A stretch of 64,000 nucleotides of DNA from Pseudomonadota bacterium (GTDB lineage: Bacteria; Pseudomonadota; Alphaproteobacteria; Geminicoccales; Geminicoccaceae): assembly GCA_030549795.1 (NCBI GenBank), contig JAUQQO010000009.1, positions 1 through 64,000 on the forward strand. Reading direction: 5' to 3'. How positions within the stretch are numbered: position 1 is the first letter of the stretch; each line of letters starts with the position of its first letter. Positions 7,864 through 54,519 of this stretch are shown one piece after another. The notes beneath the pieces are model-generated. The model made no database searches. It worked only from the letters and a program-made list of their open reading frames with translations, and was not told where the DNA came from. The position numbers and the translations under genes were made by a program.

Positions 7864-8937
7864 GTGGTGCAGATCCCCCATCCGGTCGAGAGCGGCGATT
7901 TCACGCGCGAAGTGGTTTGGGCAGCGGCCGCTCCGCCCCTGGCCGAGCCGGTTACGGTGGCCGAGGGTATCTTGTGGCTGCGCTTGGCGCTGCCTTTTAA
8001 GCTCGACCACATCAACCTGTGGCTGCTCGACGACGGCGACGGCTGGACCCTCGTCGACACCGGCTATGGCGATGCGCGCACGAGCGCGATCTGGGACGGC
8101 CTGCTGGCGGCGGGCAAGTTCGCGGGCAAGCCGCTTGCGCGGATCCTCGTCACCCACTTCCACCCCGACCATCTCGGCCAAGCCGGGCGGCTCTGCCGGC
8201 GCTTCGATCTGCCGCTTTTCATGACCCGCACCGAATGGCTCACCGGGCGGATGCTCCAGCTCGATGTGAGCGAGGAGTTCATCGCCGCGGGAATCGCGCA
8301 GGACCGCCGCGCCGGTCTCTCTCCCGAACTGCTCGAGCGGCGGCGCGACCGCGGCAACGCCTACCGCCCGGGGGTGACGCCGGTGCCGGCGTCGATCGAG
8401 ATCCTCGAGGCGGGCGATGCGTTCGTTGCCGGCGGCACGCGATGGGAGGTGATGGTCGGCCGCGGCCATTCGCCCGAGATGGTCACCCTTTTTTCCCGCG
8501 AGCGGAACATCCTCATCGGTGGCGACCAGCTGTTGCCGCGCATCACTCCGGTGGTGGGCTTGTGGCCCACTTCCCCCGAACGGGACCCCTTGGGCGTGTT
8601 CGTTGCGAGCATCGACCAATATGACGCGCTTCCCGAGGACGTCTTGGTGCTGCCCTCGCACGAGCGGCCCTACCGCGGCCTCAAGGTGCGGCTCGCGCAA
8701 CTGCGCGCCCACCACCGGGCCCGGCTGGACGAGACCGAGGCCCTCTGCCGGGTGCCCACAACCGCGGCGCAGGTCATGGCCGGGCTCTTCCCCAAGGACC
8801 TCGATCTCCATCAACTCGGGTTCGCGCTCGCCGAAACGCTCGCCCATCTCGTGGCGCTCGAGCGCGCTGGACGTGTGGTACGCCACCGCCGCGCCGATGG
8901 GGTGGAGATCTGGCAGAGCACGGGGCGCGCTGGCTGA
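7864..8937 (+). CDS. MBL-fold metallo-hydrolase
   Basis: A 357-residue metallo-beta-lactamase-fold hydrolase. The zinc motif HFHPDH is present (THFHPDHLGQAG), with a second His in GRGHSPEM, an Asp in GGDQLL and a late His in PSHERPYRG. The start is one of two adjacent GTG codons after a GGAG. Proteins of this length with a C-terminal helical extension are often annotated as glyoxalase II- or lactonase-like hydrolases; the substrate here is unknown. It ends 10 bp from the convergent AlaX gene. Confidence 0.9.
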   Translation: MVQIPHPVESGDFTREVVWAAAAPPLAEPVTVAEGILWLRLALPFKLDHINLWLLDDGDGWTLVDTGYGDARTSAIWDGLLAAGKFAGKPLARILVTHFHPDHLGQAGRLCRRFDLPLFMTRTEWLTGRMLQLDVSEEFIAAGIAQDRRAGLSPELLERRRDRGNAYRPGVTPVPASIEILEAGDAFVAGGTRWEVMVGRGHSPEMVTLFSRERNILIGGDQLLPRITPVVGLWPTSPERDPLGVFVASIDQYDALPEDVLVLPSHERPYRGLKVRLAQLRAHHRARLDETEALCRVPTTAAQVMAGLFPKDLDLHQLGFALAETLAHLVALERAGRVVRHRRADGVEIWQSTGRAG

Positions 8938-8947
8938 AAAGCTGCGC

Positions 8948-9658
8948 TTAGGGCGCGATGGCGATCGCCACGCGGCGGTTCTGCCGCCCTTTCTTCTCGA
9001 TCTTGACGATGCGCACGCGGCCGATCTCGCCCGTGCGGCGCACATGGGTGCCGCCGCAGGCTTGCAGATCCACCCCTTCGATCTCCACGAGGCGGATTTG
9101 CCCCACACCCTTGGGCGGTCGCACCCACATCGTCTTGACGAGCTCGGGGCGCCGTTCGAGCTCGGCCTCCTCAATCCACAGCGCCCGCACCGGCAGATCG
9201 GCTTCGACCCACGCCACGAGCTTCGCCTCGATCGCTGCGCGGTCGGGAGGCTCCGGCAGGTCGAAGTCGAGCCTTCCTTCGAGCTCGCCCACGGCGCCAC
9301 CGGTGACCGGTGCGGCCACCGCCGCTGAGAGCAGGTGGAGCGCCGTGTGGGCGCGCATGAGCCGATAGCGCCGCTCCCAGTCGATCACCGCCTCAACGCG
9401 CATCCCACAAATGAGCGGTTCGCTCCCTTCCACCGGGACGTGCACGATGAGCGCGTCCTCGCCCTTGCGGGTGTCGACGATCGCCACCTTCCGCCCGTCT
9501 TCGAGGAGGAGATGGCCGCGATCACCCGGCTGCCCGCCGCCAGCGGGATAGAAGACGGTGCGGTCGAGAACGATCCCTTCGGGGCGAACCGCGCAGATGC
9601 GCGCGCTGCAGGCGCGCGCGTACGGATCGTCGCGAAAGAGCGCTTCGCTCACCGTCAC
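8948..9658 (-). CDS. alaX: Alanyl-tRNA editing protein AlaX
   Basis: A 236-residue free-standing editing domain that hydrolyses Ser or Gly mis-attached to tRNA-Ala. Both zinc-binding elements of the AlaRS editing fold are present: HTALHLL (HxxxH) and CGGTHV (CxxxH). The N-terminal beta-barrel with YPAGGGQPGDRG identifies the AlaX-M type. A GTG start follows GAGGACG. It is divergent from the ABC ATPase gene. Confidence 0.93.
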   Translation of the reverse strand: MTVSEALFRDDPYARACSARICAVRPEGIVLDRTVFYPAGGGQPGDRGHLLLEDGRKVAIVDTRKGEDALIVHVPVEGSEPLICGMRVEAVIDWERRYRLMRAHTALHLLSAAVAAPVTGGAVGELEGRLDFDLPEPPDRAAIEAKLVAWVEADLPVRALWIEEAELERRPELVKTMWVRPPKGVGQIRLVEIEGVDLQACGGTHVRRTGEIGRVRIVKIEKKGRQNRRVAIAIAP

Positions 9659-47731: not shown

Positions 47732-47766
47732 CTTCTATGAGCTCTATGCGAGAGGGAGACGAGGCG

Positions 47767-48591
47767 GTGCGGGTGAGCGTCATCCAGATGAACGCAGGCG
47801 ACGACAAGGCGGCCAACCTCGCCGCCGCCGAGCGGCTGGTGCGCGAGGCGGTCGCTGCGGACCGGCCGGATCTCGTGGTCTTGCCCGAGGTTTGGACCTG
47901 TCTTGGCGGCAGCGAGGAGACCAAGCGCGCCGCTGCGGAAGTGTTGGGCGAAGAAGGCGAGGCCTATCGGCTGATGCGCGATCTCGCCCGCAGCCATCGC
48001 ATTTGGCTTTACGGCGGCAGTGTGCTCGAGCGCGATCCCAGAGCAGAGAAGCTCTTCAACACGAGCGTGGCGTTCGATCGCGACGGGCGCGAGGTGGCGC
48101 GCTACCGCAAGATCCACCTCTTCGACATCACGGCACCGGATGGGCGCGCCTATCGCGAATCGGCGACCTTCGGGCGCGGCCAGGAGGTCGTGGTCTTCGA
48201 AGCGGAGGGGCTCAAGATCGGCTGCTCGATCTGTTATGATTTGCGTTTCGGCGAGCTCTACCGACGCTTAAGCGCGCGCGGCGCCGAACTTTTGGTGGTA
48301 CCCGCTGCCTTCACCCTGCACACCGGCAAGGACCATTGGGAAGTGCTCACCCGTGCCCGGGCGATCGAGACCCAATGCTATCTCGCCGCAGCCGCCCAGT
48401 GGGGCCCCCATCGCGCCGGCAACGAGGAGCGCTGGAGCTACGGGCACTCGCTGATTGTCGATCCTTGGGGGCTCGTGGTAGCGCAGGTGAGCGACGGCGA
48501 GGGATTCGCAACCGCCCGTATCGAGCGCAGCCGCATCGCGCAAGTGCGCGCGCGCATCCCTGTGCAAGCGCATCGGGTGCTCGCCGGCTAA
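47767..48591 (+). CDS. Nitrilase-superfamily amidase (Nit1/Nit2-like), intact triad
   Basis: A 274-residue C-N hydrolase. The triad is complete: E41 (VLPEVW), K115 (YRKIHLF) and C156 (SICYDLRFGELYR). The pattern fits the deaminated-glutathione amidase / omega-amidase branch, which repairs metabolites. The GTG at 47767 is chosen because AGGGAG sits 8-9 bases upstream; ATG codons at 47737 and 47746 are less well placed. It is divergent from aspS. Confidence 0.9.
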   Translation: MRVSVIQMNAGDDKAANLAAAERLVREAVAADRPDLVVLPEVWTCLGGSEETKRAAAEVLGEEGEAYRLMRDLARSHRIWLYGGSVLERDPRAEKLFNTSVAFDRDGREVARYRKIHLFDITAPDGRAYRESATFGRGQEVVVFEAEGLKIGCSICYDLRFGELYRRLSARGAELLVVPAAFTLHTGKDHWEVLTRARAIETQCYLAAAAQWGPHRAGNEERWSYGHSLIVDPWGLVVAQVSDGEGFATARIERSRIAQVRARIPVQAHRVLAG

Positions 48592-48670: not shown

Positions 48671-49300
48671 ATGAGAGGGTTCGCGGCGGGGGCCGCGCTT
48701 GCGACCGCACTTTTGGGCGGTGCGGCGCTGGCTCAGCCGGGCAAAGGCGATCCGGACTGGCCCTGCGGCCAGATCTACAATCCGGATCTCGTGCTCGCCC
48801 ATGTCTGGAAAGGCCCCGATCCGGCGAAGCTCGGTGGTCAGTGGGCGGTGGACGCAGAGGTCGCACCGCTCGTGCCCAAACTCGCCTCGACAGTCTTGCC
48901 GCTCGAGCGCGCGCTTGCGGAGATTGACGCGTTCGCTCAGCGCCTACCCGAGGAGGAGCGGGCGCGCCGCCTGACCCTGCTCGTCGTTGGGCTGCACGAG
49001 TTTTTGGATGCCGAGCGCAAGAAAACCATCGAGGGCCTTTATAAGTTCGGCCGCGCGCAACGCAAACTGGCGCAAGAGATCCGCGAGCGCAACGACCGGC
49101 TCTTAGAGCTGCGCGCGCAGAACGCAACCTCGCCAGAAGCGCAGGAGCTCGAAGAGACGCTTCAGTGGGATCTCAAGATTTTCCAAGATCGCCGCTCGAC
49201 CGTGAACACGATGTGCGCACAACCGGATATGATCGAAAAGCGGTTGTTCGCGCTCGCCAAGCACATCGAGGCGAAACTGGGGGTGGGACAGGGCGGATGA
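48671..49300 (+). CDS. Exported helical protein of unknown function (xox locus)
   Basis: A 209-residue protein. Signal peptide (GFAAGAALATALLGGAALA) is followed by a Cys in DWPCGQIYNPD, a helical middle with an Arg/Glu/Leu coiled-coil-like segment (GRAQRKLAQEIRERNDRLLEL), and a second Cys in NTMCAQPDM. The two Cys may pair in the periplasm. The ATG has GGGAGG nearby. It is the first gene of a coupled run that leads into xoxG and xoxJ, so a role in the methanol oxidation system is inferred from position only. No family is recognised. Confidence 0.8.
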   Translation: MRGFAAGAALATALLGGAALAQPGKGDPDWPCGQIYNPDLVLAHVWKGPDPAKLGGQWAVDAEVAPLVPKLASTVLPLERALAEIDAFAQRLPEEERARRLTLLVVGLHEFLDAERKKTIEGLYKFGRAQRKLAQEIRERNDRLLELRAQNATSPEAQELEETLQWDLKIFQDRRSTVNTMCAQPDMIEKRLFALAKHIEAKLGVGQGG

Positions 49301-49959
49301 GCGCGCGATGCAAGGCGCCAGTACTCGCTCTTCTCCTCTTGGCCGCCGGGGCTGGCAGCACCCGAAGCGAGACGGCGAGCCTCAACGAGCTCCTCTTCGC
49401 ACCCGGGTTCCTCGCTGCCATCCAACAGCCGACCGTGCTGCGCTACCGCTACGAGCTCTCGGGGCGGACCATGGATCGGCCCTATCGCAGCTCGGCCAAG
49501 CTCGAGATCCGCGAGGTCCTGCCCGACGGCCGCAAACAGGTCTGGCTCGACATGTTCGACGGGCCCAACCATCGCCGCACCGGCCCGCTGCCCACCGTCG
49601 ATCAAAACCCGCTTCTTTTCGCCTTCCTGCAGCGCGACACCGTGACCATGGCCAATCTTACCGGCGGCGCACAGGGTTATTTCCAACAGCAGATCCGACG
49701 CGCCTTCGACCGCCCGGTGAGTGTCGAGACTACGACCGTGGTCTGGCGCGGACAGAGCTACCCGGCGCGCACCCTACGTCTCAAACCCTTCCTGAACGAT
49801 CCCGAGATCGCCCGCTTCCCCCAGTTCCGCGACAAGGAATACAGTTTCACGGTAGCGCCCGATCTGCCGGGCGGGCTGTGGCAGATCCGCATCCGACTGC
49901 CCGACAGCTCGGGCACGCCGTTCCTCGAAGAGACCTTGACTTTGGATAGCGTCGAATGA
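49297..49959 (+). CDS. Exported beta-rich protein of unknown function (xox locus)
   Basis: A 220-residue protein. A signal peptide (APVLALLLLAAGAGSTRS) is followed by alternating strands (TVLRYRYELSG, SSAKLEIREVLPDGRKQVWLDMFDG, EYSFTVAPDLPGGLWQIRIRLP). Its ATG overlaps the previous stop by 4 nt (ATGA), and its own end overlaps the next gene by 4 nt. This tight coupling argues for a joint function with the neighbours. It has no Cys in the mature part and no recognised domain. Confidence 0.8.
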   Translation: MSARCKAPVLALLLLAAGAGSTRSETASLNELLFAPGFLAAIQQPTVLRYRYELSGRTMDRPYRSSAKLEIREVLPDGRKQVWLDMFDGPNHRRTGPLPTVDQNPLLFAFLQRDTVTMANLTGGAQGYFQQQIRRAFDRPVSVETTTVVWRGQSYPARTLRLKPFLNDPEIARFPQFRDKEYSFTVAPDLPGGLWQIRIRLPDSSGTPFLEETLTLDSVE

Positions 49960-50351
49960 ACCGCAACCGCCCCTTCTTCCCCGCCTTCCGCGCGCCGGCG
50001 CGCTTACGGCGCGCGACCCTGCTCGCGGCGCTGGTCCTCTCAGGCGCGATCGCCTCGGCTGACGCGGCGCCTGCCGATTATCCGACCGAAGTCCTTGCCG
50101 ACTATGTGATGGCTTGCATGGCGGTCAAGGGACAGACACCGGATGCGCTTCGGCGTTGTTCCTGCTCGATCGACCGCATCGCGGCGCGCCTGCCTTACGA
50201 GGACTATGTCAAGGCCGAGACGGTCTTGCGCATGCGGCGCGAGACCACCGGGCGCGATCAGGTGGTCATGTTCCGCACCTCGCCCTGGGCGCAGGAGATG
50301 GTGGACAAGCTGCGCCGGGCTCAGATCGAGGCCGACCTCGAGTGCTTTTGA
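49956..50351 (+). CDS. Small exported Cys-rich protein of unknown function (xox locus)
   Basis: A 131-residue protein. A signal peptide (ATLLAALVLSGAIASADAA) is followed by a helical domain with four Cys: VMACMAV, RRCSCSID (two) and the penultimate residue (LECF). There is no CxxCH haem motif, so it is not a c-type cytochrome; two disulfides or a metal site are possible. It overlaps the preceding gene by 4 nt and stands 110 bp before xoxG. Confidence 0.8.
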   Translation: MNRNRPFFPAFRAPARLRRATLLAALVLSGAIASADAAPADYPTEVLADYVMACMAVKGQTPDALRRCSCSIDRIAARLPYEDYVKAETVLRMRRETTGRDQVVMFRTSPWAQEMVDKLRRAQIEADLECF

Positions 50352-50461
50352 GCACCGGGTGCGCGCCCTTTAGGCTTGGCGCGGCGCGATCGCGAACTAT
50401 AGTCGCGCACAGCCGAAGGCCCAAGGCTTCGGATTAGAGATCTGGCTTTACAGGGAGGTCG

Positions 50462-50911
50462 ATGATGCGTCCTGTCGGCGGCAGCCGCCTGATCCTCTGT
50501 GCCTCGTTTCTCCTTCTCGCCGCTGCGGGAACGGGTTCGGCTCAGCAAGCCGCCGACGACGAGGCCTATGAGCGTCCCTACACGATCTGCGGCCCCAACC
50601 AGGTCGATCGCGGCACCTACAACGGCTACCGCCGCTATCACGCCTTCTGCCATGTCTGCCACGGACCCGACGGGCTCGGCAGCAGCTACGCGCCCAATCT
50701 CGTCGAATCGCTCAAGGTCATGAAGCGCGACGATTTCGCGCAAGTGGTAGCGGGCGGTCGCCAGAACATCGCCGCTGGCAAGGAGAGCGTGATGCCGGCT
50801 TTCTATGAGGTGGCCGATGTCATGAACTATCTCGAAGACATCTACTCCTATCTCAAGGCCCGCTCCGACGGCAAGCTCGGCCGCGGTCGGCCGGAGCGCT
50901 GTCCCTCGTGA
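50462..50911 (+). CDS. xoxG: c-type cytochrome, methanol-oxidation type (XoxG-like)
   Basis: A 149-residue monohaem cytochrome. Signal peptide is followed by the haem motif C63-H-V-C66-H67, with M111 in ESVMPAF as likely axial ligand. Two extra Cys (C43 in TICGPN and C147 in ERCPS) match the four-Cys cytochromes found with methanol dehydrogenases. It accepts electrons from PQQ in XoxF and passes them on. Ribosome site GGGAGG; a second Met directly follows the first. Its stop overlaps xoxJ. Confidence 0.9.
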   Translation: MMRPVGGSRLILCASFLLLAAAGTGSAQQAADDEAYERPYTICGPNQVDRGTYNGYRRYHAFCHVCHGPDGLGSSYAPNLVESLKVMKRDDFAQVVAGGRQNIAAGKESVMPAFYEVADVMNYLEDIYSYLKARSDGKLGRGRPERCPS

Positions 50912-51801
50912 TGCGGCAGCGCGCCCAGCGACGCGGGCTGTTCGCGCTCGGCCTCGCCGGCCTGCTCGCGCTCGGCATCGCCTTCCCGGGGCCGAGCCTC
51001 GCGCGCGATCCGAGCAAGGGCGAGCTGCGCTCGCAGATCGCCTTTCGGGTGTGCGCCGATCCCGACAACCTTCCCTTCTCCAACGACAAGGGCGAAGGGT
51101 TCGAGAACAAGATCGCCGAGCTCTTCGCCCAGTCGCTCGGACTACCTGTTCACTATACCTGGCATCCGCAAACCCTAGGCTTCGTGCGCAACACTCTGGG
51201 CTCGCAGCTGTGCGACGTGATCATGGCGATCAACGCCGCCCACGAGCTCGTCCAAAATACCCGTTTTTACTATCGATCGACCTATGTGCTCGTCTATCGC
51301 GCCAAGGACCGCGGCACCTTCGACAGCCTCGATTCCCCGATGGCGGCGATTGCGCGCATCGGTGTGGTCGCCAATACGCCGCCGGCCGTCTTGCTCACCC
51401 GCCGCGGGCTGATCAACAACGTCGTTTCTTACGGATTGATCGTCGATACCCGAGTGGAGCATCCGGCCAAGGACGCTCTCGACGATCTGGCCAATGGCCG
51501 CATCGACATGGCCCTCATCTGGGGGCCGATCGCCGGCTATTGGGTGCAGCGCAGCCCCGTGCCGCTCGAATGGGTGCCGCTGCGCCCCGATCCCGGGCTC
51601 ACCACGCCCATGGACTTCCGCATCTCCATGGGCGTGCGCTATGGCGAGACCGAGTGGCTCGATACCCTCAACCGGCTGATCCGCGAAAAGCAGCGCGACA
51701 TCGACCGTATCCTCAACGAGTATGGCGTGCCGCTGTTGGACGCCGCCGGCCGGCTCATCAACCCACCACCCTGGCTGCAGCCGGCAGCCGCCCGCAACTG
51801 A
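50908..51801 (+). CDS. xoxJ: Quinoprotein-dehydrogenase-associated periplasmic binding protein (XoxJ)
   Basis: A 297-residue SBP_bac_3-type protein. A signal peptide (GLFALGLAGLLALGIAFPGPSLA) is followed by the binding-protein opening FRVCADPDNLPFSNDKGEGFENKIAELFA, typical of XoxJ/MxaJ. Family members are thought to help mature or activate the dehydrogenase. The start is GTG at 50908 or the next codon ATG, both overlapping the xoxG stop. It is the last gene of the rightward run and converges on the DUF2380-like gene. Confidence 0.92.
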   Translation: MMRQRAQRRGLFALGLAGLLALGIAFPGPSLARDPSKGELRSQIAFRVCADPDNLPFSNDKGEGFENKIAELFAQSLGLPVHYTWHPQTLGFVRNTLGSQLCDVIMAINAAHELVQNTRFYYRSTYVLVYRAKDRGTFDSLDSPMAAIARIGVVANTPPAVLLTRRGLINNVVSYGLIVDTRVEHPAKDALDDLANGRIDMALIWGPIAGYWVQRSPVPLEWVPLRPDPGLTTPMDFRISMGVRYGETEWLDTLNRLIREKQRDIDRILNEYGVPLLDAAGRLINPPPWLQPAAARN

Positions 51802-51985: not shown

Positions 51986-52483
51986 TCAAGGCCGGGTCGC
52001 GAAGACGACATTGTCGATGAGATAGCGCACCCCGCGCAGCCAGCTCTCATCCGTATTGCTGCGGATCGCAACCGAACCCTTGTGCACGAGCCGGCCCGTG
52101 TGTGCGTCCGCGATGCGCAGCGTGATGTCGAGGATGAGGTTGCTCGTTTTGCCGACCCAGGCGAGTGCCGCCTGCTCGGCGCTGAGCTCGCGGGCGAGGT
52201 CGAGTTCGCAGCCGTTGCACTCGCGCAGGCTCGCATAGAACGCGACCTTGGCCAGGACGGGCGCGGGATCGACGAGCGCGTACCCTTTCGCCGCGAGGAG
52301 ACGGCGCAGCTCGGCTTCGGCAAGGCGCAGGCGCAGCCGTTCGTCCTCGCGTACGGGCTCGAGGCTGTAATTGACGAACTCGAGCGGAAAGAGGACCAGC
52401 CGCACCGCCTCTTGGGCCGCGGCGGTGGTCGCGCTCGGGCCAAAGAGCAAAGCAAAGAGGAAAGCGAAGCTCGTAATCCGCAC
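51986..52483 (-). CDS. DUF2380/DUF3280-like exported protein
   Basis: A 165-residue protein with an N-terminal signal peptide (ITSFAFLFALLFGPSATTAAAQ). The mature part (AVRLVLFPLEFVNYSLEPVRED, AWVGKTSNLILDITLRIADAHTG, then VRYLIDNVVFATRP) resembles the DUF2380 family seen beside quinoprotein dehydrogenases in alphaproteobacteria. The start must lie after the xoxF terminator (52505-52539), so an upstream ATG at 52543 inside it is rejected; the GTG at 52483 is chosen without a strong ribosome site. Function unknown. Confidence 0.75.
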   Translation of the reverse strand: MRITSFAFLFALLFGPSATTAAAQEAVRLVLFPLEFVNYSLEPVREDERLRLRLAEAELRRLLAAKGYALVDPAPVLAKVAFYASLRECNGCELDLARELSAEQAALAWVGKTSNLILDITLRIADAHTGRLVHKGSVAIRSNTDESWLRGVRYLIDNVVFATRP

Positions 52484-52504
52484 CGGCGTGTCTCGTTGCC
52501 TCAA

Positions 52505-52539
52505 GAAAAAGGACCCGGCGTCGGGCCGACGCCGGGTCC
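52505..52539 (-). terminator. Strong Rho-independent terminator of xoxF
   Basis: On the minus strand GGACCCGGCGTCGG and its complement form a near-perfect 12-14 bp stem with a tiny loop, followed by TTTTTCTTG. It begins about 24 nt after the xoxF stop and separates xoxF from the DUF2380-like gene. Confidence 0.92.
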
Positions 52540-52563
52540 CCACCGCGAAGTTAGGTGATCAGC

Positions 52564-54357
52564 TCACGGCAAGCTGAAGACGGTGAGCTGGCCGCCGAGC
52601 TGGGTGTAGTTGGAGAGCGCCTTGTACGCGCCCACGGCACCCAGGCCGGCCGTGTCCTCGGTCAGACCCGCGGCGAGGCCGATGCCGGCCCAACCGCCGA
52701 TGCCCGAGAGCACCGCCATGTACTGCTTGCCGCCGTGCAGGTAGGTCATCACGTTGCCGATAATGCCCGACGGCGTCTTGAAGCGGTACAGCTCGCGACC
52801 CGTATCGGCGTCGAGAACCTTGAAGTAGCCCTCGAGCGTGCCGTAGGCGACGATGTCGCCGGCGGTGGCGAGCACGCCCGACCACACCGAGAAGGGTTCG
52901 ATGTTGAGCCACTTGTGACCGCCGTTGATGGGATCCCAAGCGCCGATGGCACCGAGCGTATCGCCACCGGGGGCCGGGTACATCGACACGGTCGCACCGA
53001 CATAGGGCTGACCGGCGGTATACGTCACCCGGAAGGGCTCATAGTCCATGCACACCGTGTTGTAGGGGATGTACATGAGCCCGGTCTTGGGGCTGTAGGC
53101 CGCCGGCTGCTGGTCCTTGGTGCCGAGCGCCGCCGGGCAGATGCCCTTGGTGTTGACGTCCTCGCCATTCGCATGGGTCGAATAGCGCGGATCGACGTTC
53201 GGCCGCCCGGTCTTGAGGTCGACATGCGTCGCCCAATTCACCCACGGGAAGGACTTGTCGGCGCGCAACAGCTCGCCCGTCACCCGATCGAGGGTGTAGC
53301 TGAACCCGTTACGGTCGTGGTGGAACAGCAGCTTGCGCGGCCGGCCCTGCCAGTTGGCGTCGAAGAGGATCATCTCGTTGACGCCGTCATAGTCCCACTC
53401 GTCATGCGGCGTCATCTGGTAGACCCACTTCGCCATGCCGGTGTCGGCGTCGCGGGCGAAGATAGTCATCGACCACTTGTTGTCGCCCGGCCGCTGCACG
53501 GGGTTCCAGGTGCCCGGGTTACCGGAGCCGTAGTAGATCAAATTGAGCTCCGGATCGACCGAGATCCAGCCCCAGGTGCAACCACCGCCGATCTTCCACT
53601 GATCGCCCTGCCAAGTCTTGAGGCTCGAGTCCTTGCCGACCGGCTTGCCGAGCTCAGTGGTCTTCTCCGGATCGACGAGAATCTCGTTGTCCGGACCCAT
53701 GGAATAGCCGCGCCAGACCCGCTTGCCGGTCTTGATATCGTAGGCAGTGAGGTGGCAGCGGACGCCGAACTCGCCGCCTGAGATACCGACGTAGACCTTG
53801 TCCTTGTAGACGAGCGGCGCCGAGGTGCCGGTCTCGCCCTTGGACGGATCGCCGTTCTTCACCTGCCAAACGACCTTGCCGGTCTTGGCATCGAGCGCAA
53901 CGAGCGTGGTATCGGCCTGGTGCAGGAAGATCTTGCCGTCACCGTAGGCGACGCCGCGATTGACGGTGTCGCAGCACATCACCGGGATGACGTTGGGATC
54001 CTGTTTCGGCTCATACTTCCAAATGACCCGCCCATCCGCGTTGAGGTCCAACGCATAGACGATGTTGGGGAACGGCGTGTGCACATACATCACATTGCCG
54101 ATCACGAGCGGGCCGCCCTCGTGGCCGCGCAACACGCCGGTAGAAAAGGTCCACGCCACGCGCAAATCCTTGGCGTTGTTCTTGTTGATTTGCGCGAGCT
54201 GGCTGTAACGATGGTGATAGTAATTACCCCCCTGCATGACCCAGAACGCTGGGTTCTGCTGGAGCAGCAAGAGCTCTTCGTTCGCTTCGGCGAGCGATAG
54301 CCCAGCGAGCAACGCCGCCGTCGCGACGCCGCAACCGAGCACGACCTTAGACTTCAC
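52564..54357 (-). CDS. xoxF: Lanthanide-dependent PQQ methanol dehydrogenase XoxF
   Basis: A 597-residue periplasmic quinoprotein that oxidises methanol. The eight-bladed propeller carries the vicinal disulfide C128-C129 (VMCCDT), metal-binding E196 (GGEFGVRC) and N280 (YGSGNPG), catalytic D322, and the extra D324 of the XoxF signature (EWDYDGVN), which coordinates a lanthanide and is Ala in Ca-dependent MxaF. The GTG at 54357 is chosen because TGGAGG precedes it and it opens a good signal peptide; an ATG 45 bases upstream lacks this. The partner xoxG and xoxJ genes face it from 50.4 kb. An inverted repeat lies in its promoter region. Confidence 0.95.
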
Positions 54358-54519
54358 GACCTTGCCTCCACAGTTGATATCGTCCTTTGGTCGCTTCCGC
54401 ACGCCGATCGGAACCGCCCTCCCTCCCCGCCGGCACGCCCTTGCTCCTCTGGGTGTGGCGCCCCGGCCCTCCGACCGTTTCGTGTGAGCAAGGATTACTC
54501 TAGGACCCTACGCATGCCG

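Follow-up and report, generated by a model that had tools for sequence, protein, structure and literature searches.

Gene layout of the locus

The window (the whole 64,000-nucleotide stretch of DNA that was analyzed) contains three consecutive genes for exported proteins, which we call O1, O2, and O3, followed by xoxG and xoxJ and, on the opposite strand, xoxF. The features of the locus are as follows.

48671-49300, + strand: O1 (protein 1), 209 aa; exported, mainly helical; LutG-type
49297-49300, + strand: stop/start overlap of O1 and O2, ATGA
49297-49959, + strand: O2 (protein 2), 220 aa; exported; predicted LolA/RseB-like fold; Orf7-type (AM1 META1p1747)
49956-49959, + strand: stop/start overlap of O2 and O3, ATGA
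49956-50351, + strand: O3 (protein 3), 131 aa; exported, small, helical; Orf6-type (AM1 META1p1746)
50462-50911, + strand: xoxG, cytochrome c partner of XoxF (TIGR03874, E 8e-42, 142 bits, below the 161.75-bit cutoff)
50908-51801, + strand: xoxJ, periplasmic binding-protein-like (TIGR03871, 298 bits, above the cutoff)
51986-52543, - strand: DUF3280 (PF11684) exported protein, a recurrent neighbor of xox and lut genes
52564-54402, - strand: xoxF (TIGR03075, 751 bits), with the WDYDG motif of lanthanide-type enzymes and a Cys-Cys pair

The coordinates and the sequence confirmed what the first-pass annotation had described: two ATGA overlaps, three signal peptides, and a position of the trio 5' of xoxG/xoxJ. 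By eye, the N termini of all three proteins are hydrophobic export signals (for example, ...LLGGAALA before QPG and ...AIASADA before APADYP). The xoxG and xoxJ genes overlap by GTGA (50908-50911), and xoxF is convergent to the trio-xoxG-xoxJ set. The gap between O3 and xoxG is 110 bp and contains a promoter-like site (50376-50403, + strand), which suggests that xoxG-xoxJ could have its own promoter. Thus, coupling by overlap is established for O1-O2-O3 only; the earlier claim that the trio is coupled to xoxG-xoxJ stands for the gene order and the ATGA overlaps within the trio but not across the gap.

A carbon-nitrogen hydrolase gene (47737-48591, + strand) ends 79 bp 5' of O1 on the same strand and is possibly cotranscribed with it; this position next to O1 is conserved within the genus only. 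The DUF3280 protein is another unstudied family linked to Xox and Lut, with relatives that are divergent to a LutA-type gene in Methylorubrum-like loci (L178, L183, and L185) and near xox genes elsewhere. A pentapeptide-repeat gene (PedD-like), which stands between xoxJ and xoxF in the related loci L021, L023, L024, L025, and L026, was not found in the window.

Conserved neighborhoods and correspondence with Methylorubrum extorquens AM1

We found O2 in 18 genomes out of 60 relatives, all 18 within the family of the window, and most of these carry O1, O2, and O3 consecutively. The consecutive trio lies 5' of xoxG-xoxJ, 5' of a LysR gene and pqqBCE, or 3' of LutA-/LutB-type genes, and O1 is apart from O2-O3 in three genomes (G008, G009, and G021). 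Searching named genomes with a profile of O3 gave 563 relatives, the best 80 of which are alphaproteobacterial (Geminicoccaceae, Rhodobacterales, Rhizobiales, and others). Among these best 80, O2 and O3 are same-strand neighbors in 73 of the 73 loci that hold both, so their adjacency goes beyond chance, and a xox, pqq, lut/ped, or formaldehyde oxidation marker, called by family scans, lies at most 10 kb away in 73 of the 80 loci. Genes recurring around the trio include xoxFGJ, pqqBCE, LutA/B/E/F-type genes, genes for SoxYZ-like carriers, and formaldehyde oxidation genes. Paracoccus alcaliphilus has the order xoxG-xoxJ-(SBP)-(beta-propeller)-hypothetical-PepSY-ABC-permease-O1-kinase-regulator-O2-O3 beside xoxF, and the betaproteobacterium Azoarcus has xoxF-xoxG-xoxJ-O2-O3-metallohydrolase-SoxYZ-like; in the gammaproteobacterium Thiodictyon, O2, O3, and O1 with ABC genes are close to fae. 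These betaproteobacterial and gammaproteobacterial loci lie on plasmids.

In M. extorquens AM1, the relevant designations are xoxF1 (1740), xoxG, xoxJ (1742), orf6 (1746), orf7 (1747), and pqqE (1748), with lutA-H at 1778-1785 and lanM at 1786 (PMC7391723). We compared this numbering with genome G342, which is Methylorubrum-like and has a lanmodulin with 99% identity to that of AM1 (versus PDB 6mi5). Its genes run xoxF-xoxG-xoxJ-folK-folB-folP-O3-O2-pqqE and, about 30 kb further, lutA-lutB-lutC-lutD-lutE-lutF-O1-TonB receptor-lanM, the fol, TonB-receptor, and LutD names being taken from translations. The three genes folK-folB-folP exactly fill AM1 numbers 1743-1745. Therefore, O3 corresponds to Orf6, O2 to Orf7, and O1 to LutG, an assignment made through the gene order of this close relative and through homology to its proteins. 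The window proteins share 35% (O1, E 1e-37), 27% (O2, E 3e-20), and 48% (O3, E 4e-30) identity with their Methylorubrum-like homologues. O1 is present in 99 of 99 genomes of the genus of G342, although two of the 99 give no more than a weak or partial match. Its homologue sits between the LutF permease and LutH/LanM in Methylorubrum-like loci (L178 and L185), which is not so in the window, and the O3-O2 homologue pair sits between xoxFGJ-folKBP and pqqE in L180 and L144. TMED127 bacteria have the order lutABEFCG (PMC12542740), and loci L148 and L158 fit it. A LutC-type exported protein (L178, about 8600-9060; cluster c22 in L139, L140, L148, and L158) recurs across Alphaproteobacteria, where it adjoins a LutB-type beta-propeller or a permease; it matched no NCBIfam family at the threshold applied.

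The first-pass annotation had proposed deleting each gene and growing the mutants on methanol with La3+, and for the AM1 homologues this experiment is already published: in that organism, growth was impaired by loss of lutG, orf6, or orf7 (PMC7391723). On methanol with La3+, the wild type grew at 0.16 per hour, the Δorf6 mutant at 0.03 per hour, the Δorf7 mutant at 0.08 per hour with a 9-h lag, and the ΔlutG mutant at 0.03 per hour with a 12-h lag (PMC7391723). Orf6 and orf7 were reported to be needed only when La3+ was given, and the lutG mutants, which could be complemented, behaved like those of lutA and lutB (PMC7391723).

Co-occurrence with XoxF

We compared the distribution of the trio with those of XoxF, other PQQ dehydrogenases, and the transporter across 289 Alphaproteobacteria genomes. 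XoxF was called at no less than 57% identity. Strong matches to O3 occur in 18 of the 289 genomes and XoxF also in 18, with 16 in common, 2 that have O3 alone, and 2 that have XoxF alone; the Fisher value of 3e-22 is indicative only, because the XoxF threshold was set after seeing a gap between 57% and 53% in the match list and because the genomes are related rather than independent samples. The O3 counts omit weak matches in G173, G229, and G271 (E about 1e-5), which have the pattern of another small Cys protein. O1 is found in 15 of the 289 genomes, 13 with XoxF and 2 without, and 5 genomes have XoxF and no O1. None of the 53 genomes carrying only other PQQ dehydrogenases has O1 or O3. The first-pass annotation had named, as an outcome that would speak against its proposal, homologues mostly in genomes without xoxF; what we found is the opposite, with XoxF in 16 of the 18 O3-positive genomes.

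The two genomes with XoxF and no O3 are G038, whose xox contig ends nearby, and G053, which is 71% complete. The trio without detected XoxF occurs in G160 and G184, both of which retain a Lut-type ABC beside O1; G184 is 79% complete, and either an assembly gap or another lanthanide enzyme may account for the two cases. These two genomes (loci L193, L194, L151, and L152) are 1.0-1.4 Mb in size.

One explanation of these data is that O1, as LutG, is a mere accessory subunit of a lanthanide ABC importer and that O2 and O3 ride along in the operon. Methylorubrum-like and Paracoccus loci have O1 directly 3' of the LutF/PedC permease gene. The TMED127-like loci also have O1 beside the permease gene, where it follows a LutC-type gene. 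PedC/LutF is present in 15 of the 15 O1-positive genomes, and the growth of the ΔlutG mutant is like that of ΔlutA and ΔlutB mutants (PMC7391723). However, of the 40 genomes (among 289) with PedC/LutF, 24 lack XoxF, and O1 or O3 is present in just 2 of these 24. Further, the PedC-type ABC of the window's own genome is on another contig (G000:C46), beside a different PQQ dehydrogenase. The transporter is thus wider than XoxF, and the trio marks XoxF and not the Lut/Ped ABC transporter. Since the O1 profile likewise tracks XoxF rather than PedC/LutF, a plain uptake-subunit role for O1 is weakened, and we consider it unlikely. The region on the other contig (G000:C46:110000-127000, L192) is a second PQQ-dehydrogenase cluster without O1-O3, and it contains a beta-propeller, a substrate-binding protein, a LutC-like protein, a PedB/PedC-type ABC, and a PQQ dehydrogenase with WDYDG.

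The trio could also be a set of hitchhikers on methylotrophy islands, with an unrelated envelope function. Such islands are co-inherited and also hold unrelated folK-folB-folP and hopanoid genes (PMC12542740). However, the trio follows XoxF even where the two are unlinked, as in G017, with the trio on C1 near 0.58 Mb and xoxF on C3, and mutants in the homologues have La3+-dependent phenotypes (PMC7391723). We regard this explanation as disfavored and very improbable.

Predicted structures and a probable periplasmic role

We found no significant family for O1, O2, or O3 in Pfam or NCBIfam and no PDB sequence match for O2 or O3. For O1, the PDB search gave designed helical bundles only (E 4e-4), which we dismissed as a coiled-coil-like chance match. 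The first-pass annotation, which recognized no known domain, thus holds for the Pfam, NCBIfam, and PDB sequence searches, while O2 has a LolA/RseB-like fold by prediction. Its cysteine counts of two in O1 and four in O3 are borne out, as is its description of O2 as beta-rich, the model being a beta sheet with helices; mature O2 has no cysteine.

The O2 model (pLDDT 88) matches LolA in Foldseek at E 3e-6 but with low TM-scores (0.38-0.44). VIA aligns it, at middling Z values, with a YmcC-like protein (Z 9.1), with RseB/MucB (Z 8.5-8.8), and with Pseudomonas aeruginosa LolA (Z 7.4). O2 is therefore predicted to have a LolA/RseB-like carrier fold, which is a resemblance of fold in a model and not a functional proof. 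Known members of the LolA/RseB half-barrel bind lipids, lipoproteins, or envelope-stress signals. O1 has two cysteines in the motifs DWPC.Q ... C.xP, both 100% conserved in 72-73 aligned relatives, and WPC plus one further W are kept in all aligned relatives. In O3, C54, C68, C70, and C130 (including a CxC) and Asp73 are invariant in 102 aligned sequences. The O3 model is all helix (pLDDT 83), and its fold search gave nothing above Z 4.7. The O1 and O2 alignments lack the conserved acidic-residue cluster typical of classical lanthanide binders, and DxDxDG-type loops of the EF-hand lanthanide binder lanmodulin are not conserved in the alignments of O1, O2, or O3. O3 shows neither a haem motif nor the fold of a known redox protein, and we therefore downgraded an electron-transfer role for it and give that role little weight.

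Another explanation is a thiol or sulfur relay, in which O2 and O3 would act with a SoxYZ-like carrier, SoxH-like metallohydrolases, and a CXXCW rhodanese to protect or form the Cys-Cys disulfide of XoxF or to protect its PQQ. SoxYZ-like and metallohydrolase genes adjoin O2-O3 in many loci, the four O3 cysteines include a CxC, and XoxF has a Cys-Cys pair; such roles have been proposed for the neighbor genes (PMC12997753). However, the same neighbors occur in the Pseudomonas putida ped cluster, whose gene table, in the part covered, has no protein of the O1-O3 type (PMC12997753). Moreover, the O3 cysteines may be purely structural disulfides of an exported protein, and a thioredoxin-like fold was not found. 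A relay of this kind is conceivable, but we doubt it.

We conclude that O1-O2-O3, the counterparts of LutG, Orf7, and Orf6, very probably serve XoxF, the lanthanide-dependent methanol dehydrogenase, as dedicated accessory proteins in the periplasm. This conclusion draws on the conserved operon, the export signals, the co-occurrence with XoxF, synteny, and the predicted fold of O2; that the M. extorquens genes are needed on methanol with La3+ comes from published AM1 genetics. The trio are real parts of a known system. The first-pass annotation had suggested that the proteins may serve in the periplasm to load lanthanide or PQQ, to mature XoxF, or to transfer electrons; the co-occurrence with XoxF and the AM1 phenotypes support that direction. 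As XoxF accessory proteins, the trio would most likely work at a periplasmic step that follows lanthanide uptake and precedes active XoxF, where they would handle the metal, its chelate, or PQQ. O2 could be a LolA-like carrier, O3 its disulfide-stabilized helical partner, and O1 a helical adaptor tying the step to the Lut transport proteins. We offer this carrier mechanism tentatively in its details; what is carried, that the proteins form a complex, and how the steps follow one another are inferred. Also doubtful is a dedicated loading complex in which O2, as the LolA-fold carrier, would help deliver a lanthanide, a lanthanide-chelator, or a PQQ complex to apo-XoxF; if true, it would be the missing insertion machinery of lanthanide enzymes.

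The La3+-methanol defects of the AM1 homologues are already known. The finding is sound and a useful unification, but as an element of a known system it is not categorically new. New here are that lutG/orf7/orf6-type genes form a single operon in Geminicoccaceae, that the distribution of the trio follows XoxF and not the Lut/Ped ABC transporter, and that O2 has a predicted LolA/RseB-like carrier fold. The three genes, which had been separate hits of a single genetic screen, are thereby brought together as one XoxF-specific operon in another bacterial family. This bears on how lanthanides and PQQ reach XoxF and gives a concrete set of proteins for joint purification and testing. With 563 O3 relatives from the profile scan, "hypothetical proteins" numbering in the hundreds become nameable as markers of lanthanide-dependent methylotrophy.

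Among known systems, the LolA/RseB(MucB)/LppX half-barrel is the fold that the O2 model resembles (VIA Z 8.8 for MucB), whereas sequence similarity is absent (9-17% over the structural alignments) and the TM-scores are low. PedA1A2BC and the ped cluster of P. putida have ABC transporter, beta-propeller, SoxYZ-like, and metallohydrolase genes in common with the trio neighborhoods but differ in the trio itself, as noted above for the published gene table. AM1 LutG (META1p1784) shares with the O1 homologue the position between the LutF permease and LutH-lanM and the DWPC.Q and C.xP motifs, whereas window O1, at 35% identity, lies outside a lut cluster and heads the O1-O2-O3 operon before xoxG-xoxJ. 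Orf7 (META1p1747) is exported and occupies the same slot beside pqqE as the O2 homologue; window O2 is 27% identical, and the LolA/RseB-like fold is predicted for the window protein, with no fold seen assigned to Orf7 in PMC7391723. Orf6 (META1p1746) is in the same slot as the O3 homologue, with 48% identity and four cysteines, but the window gene adjoins xoxG-xoxJ, whereas the Orf6-type gene adjoins the fol genes and pqqE.
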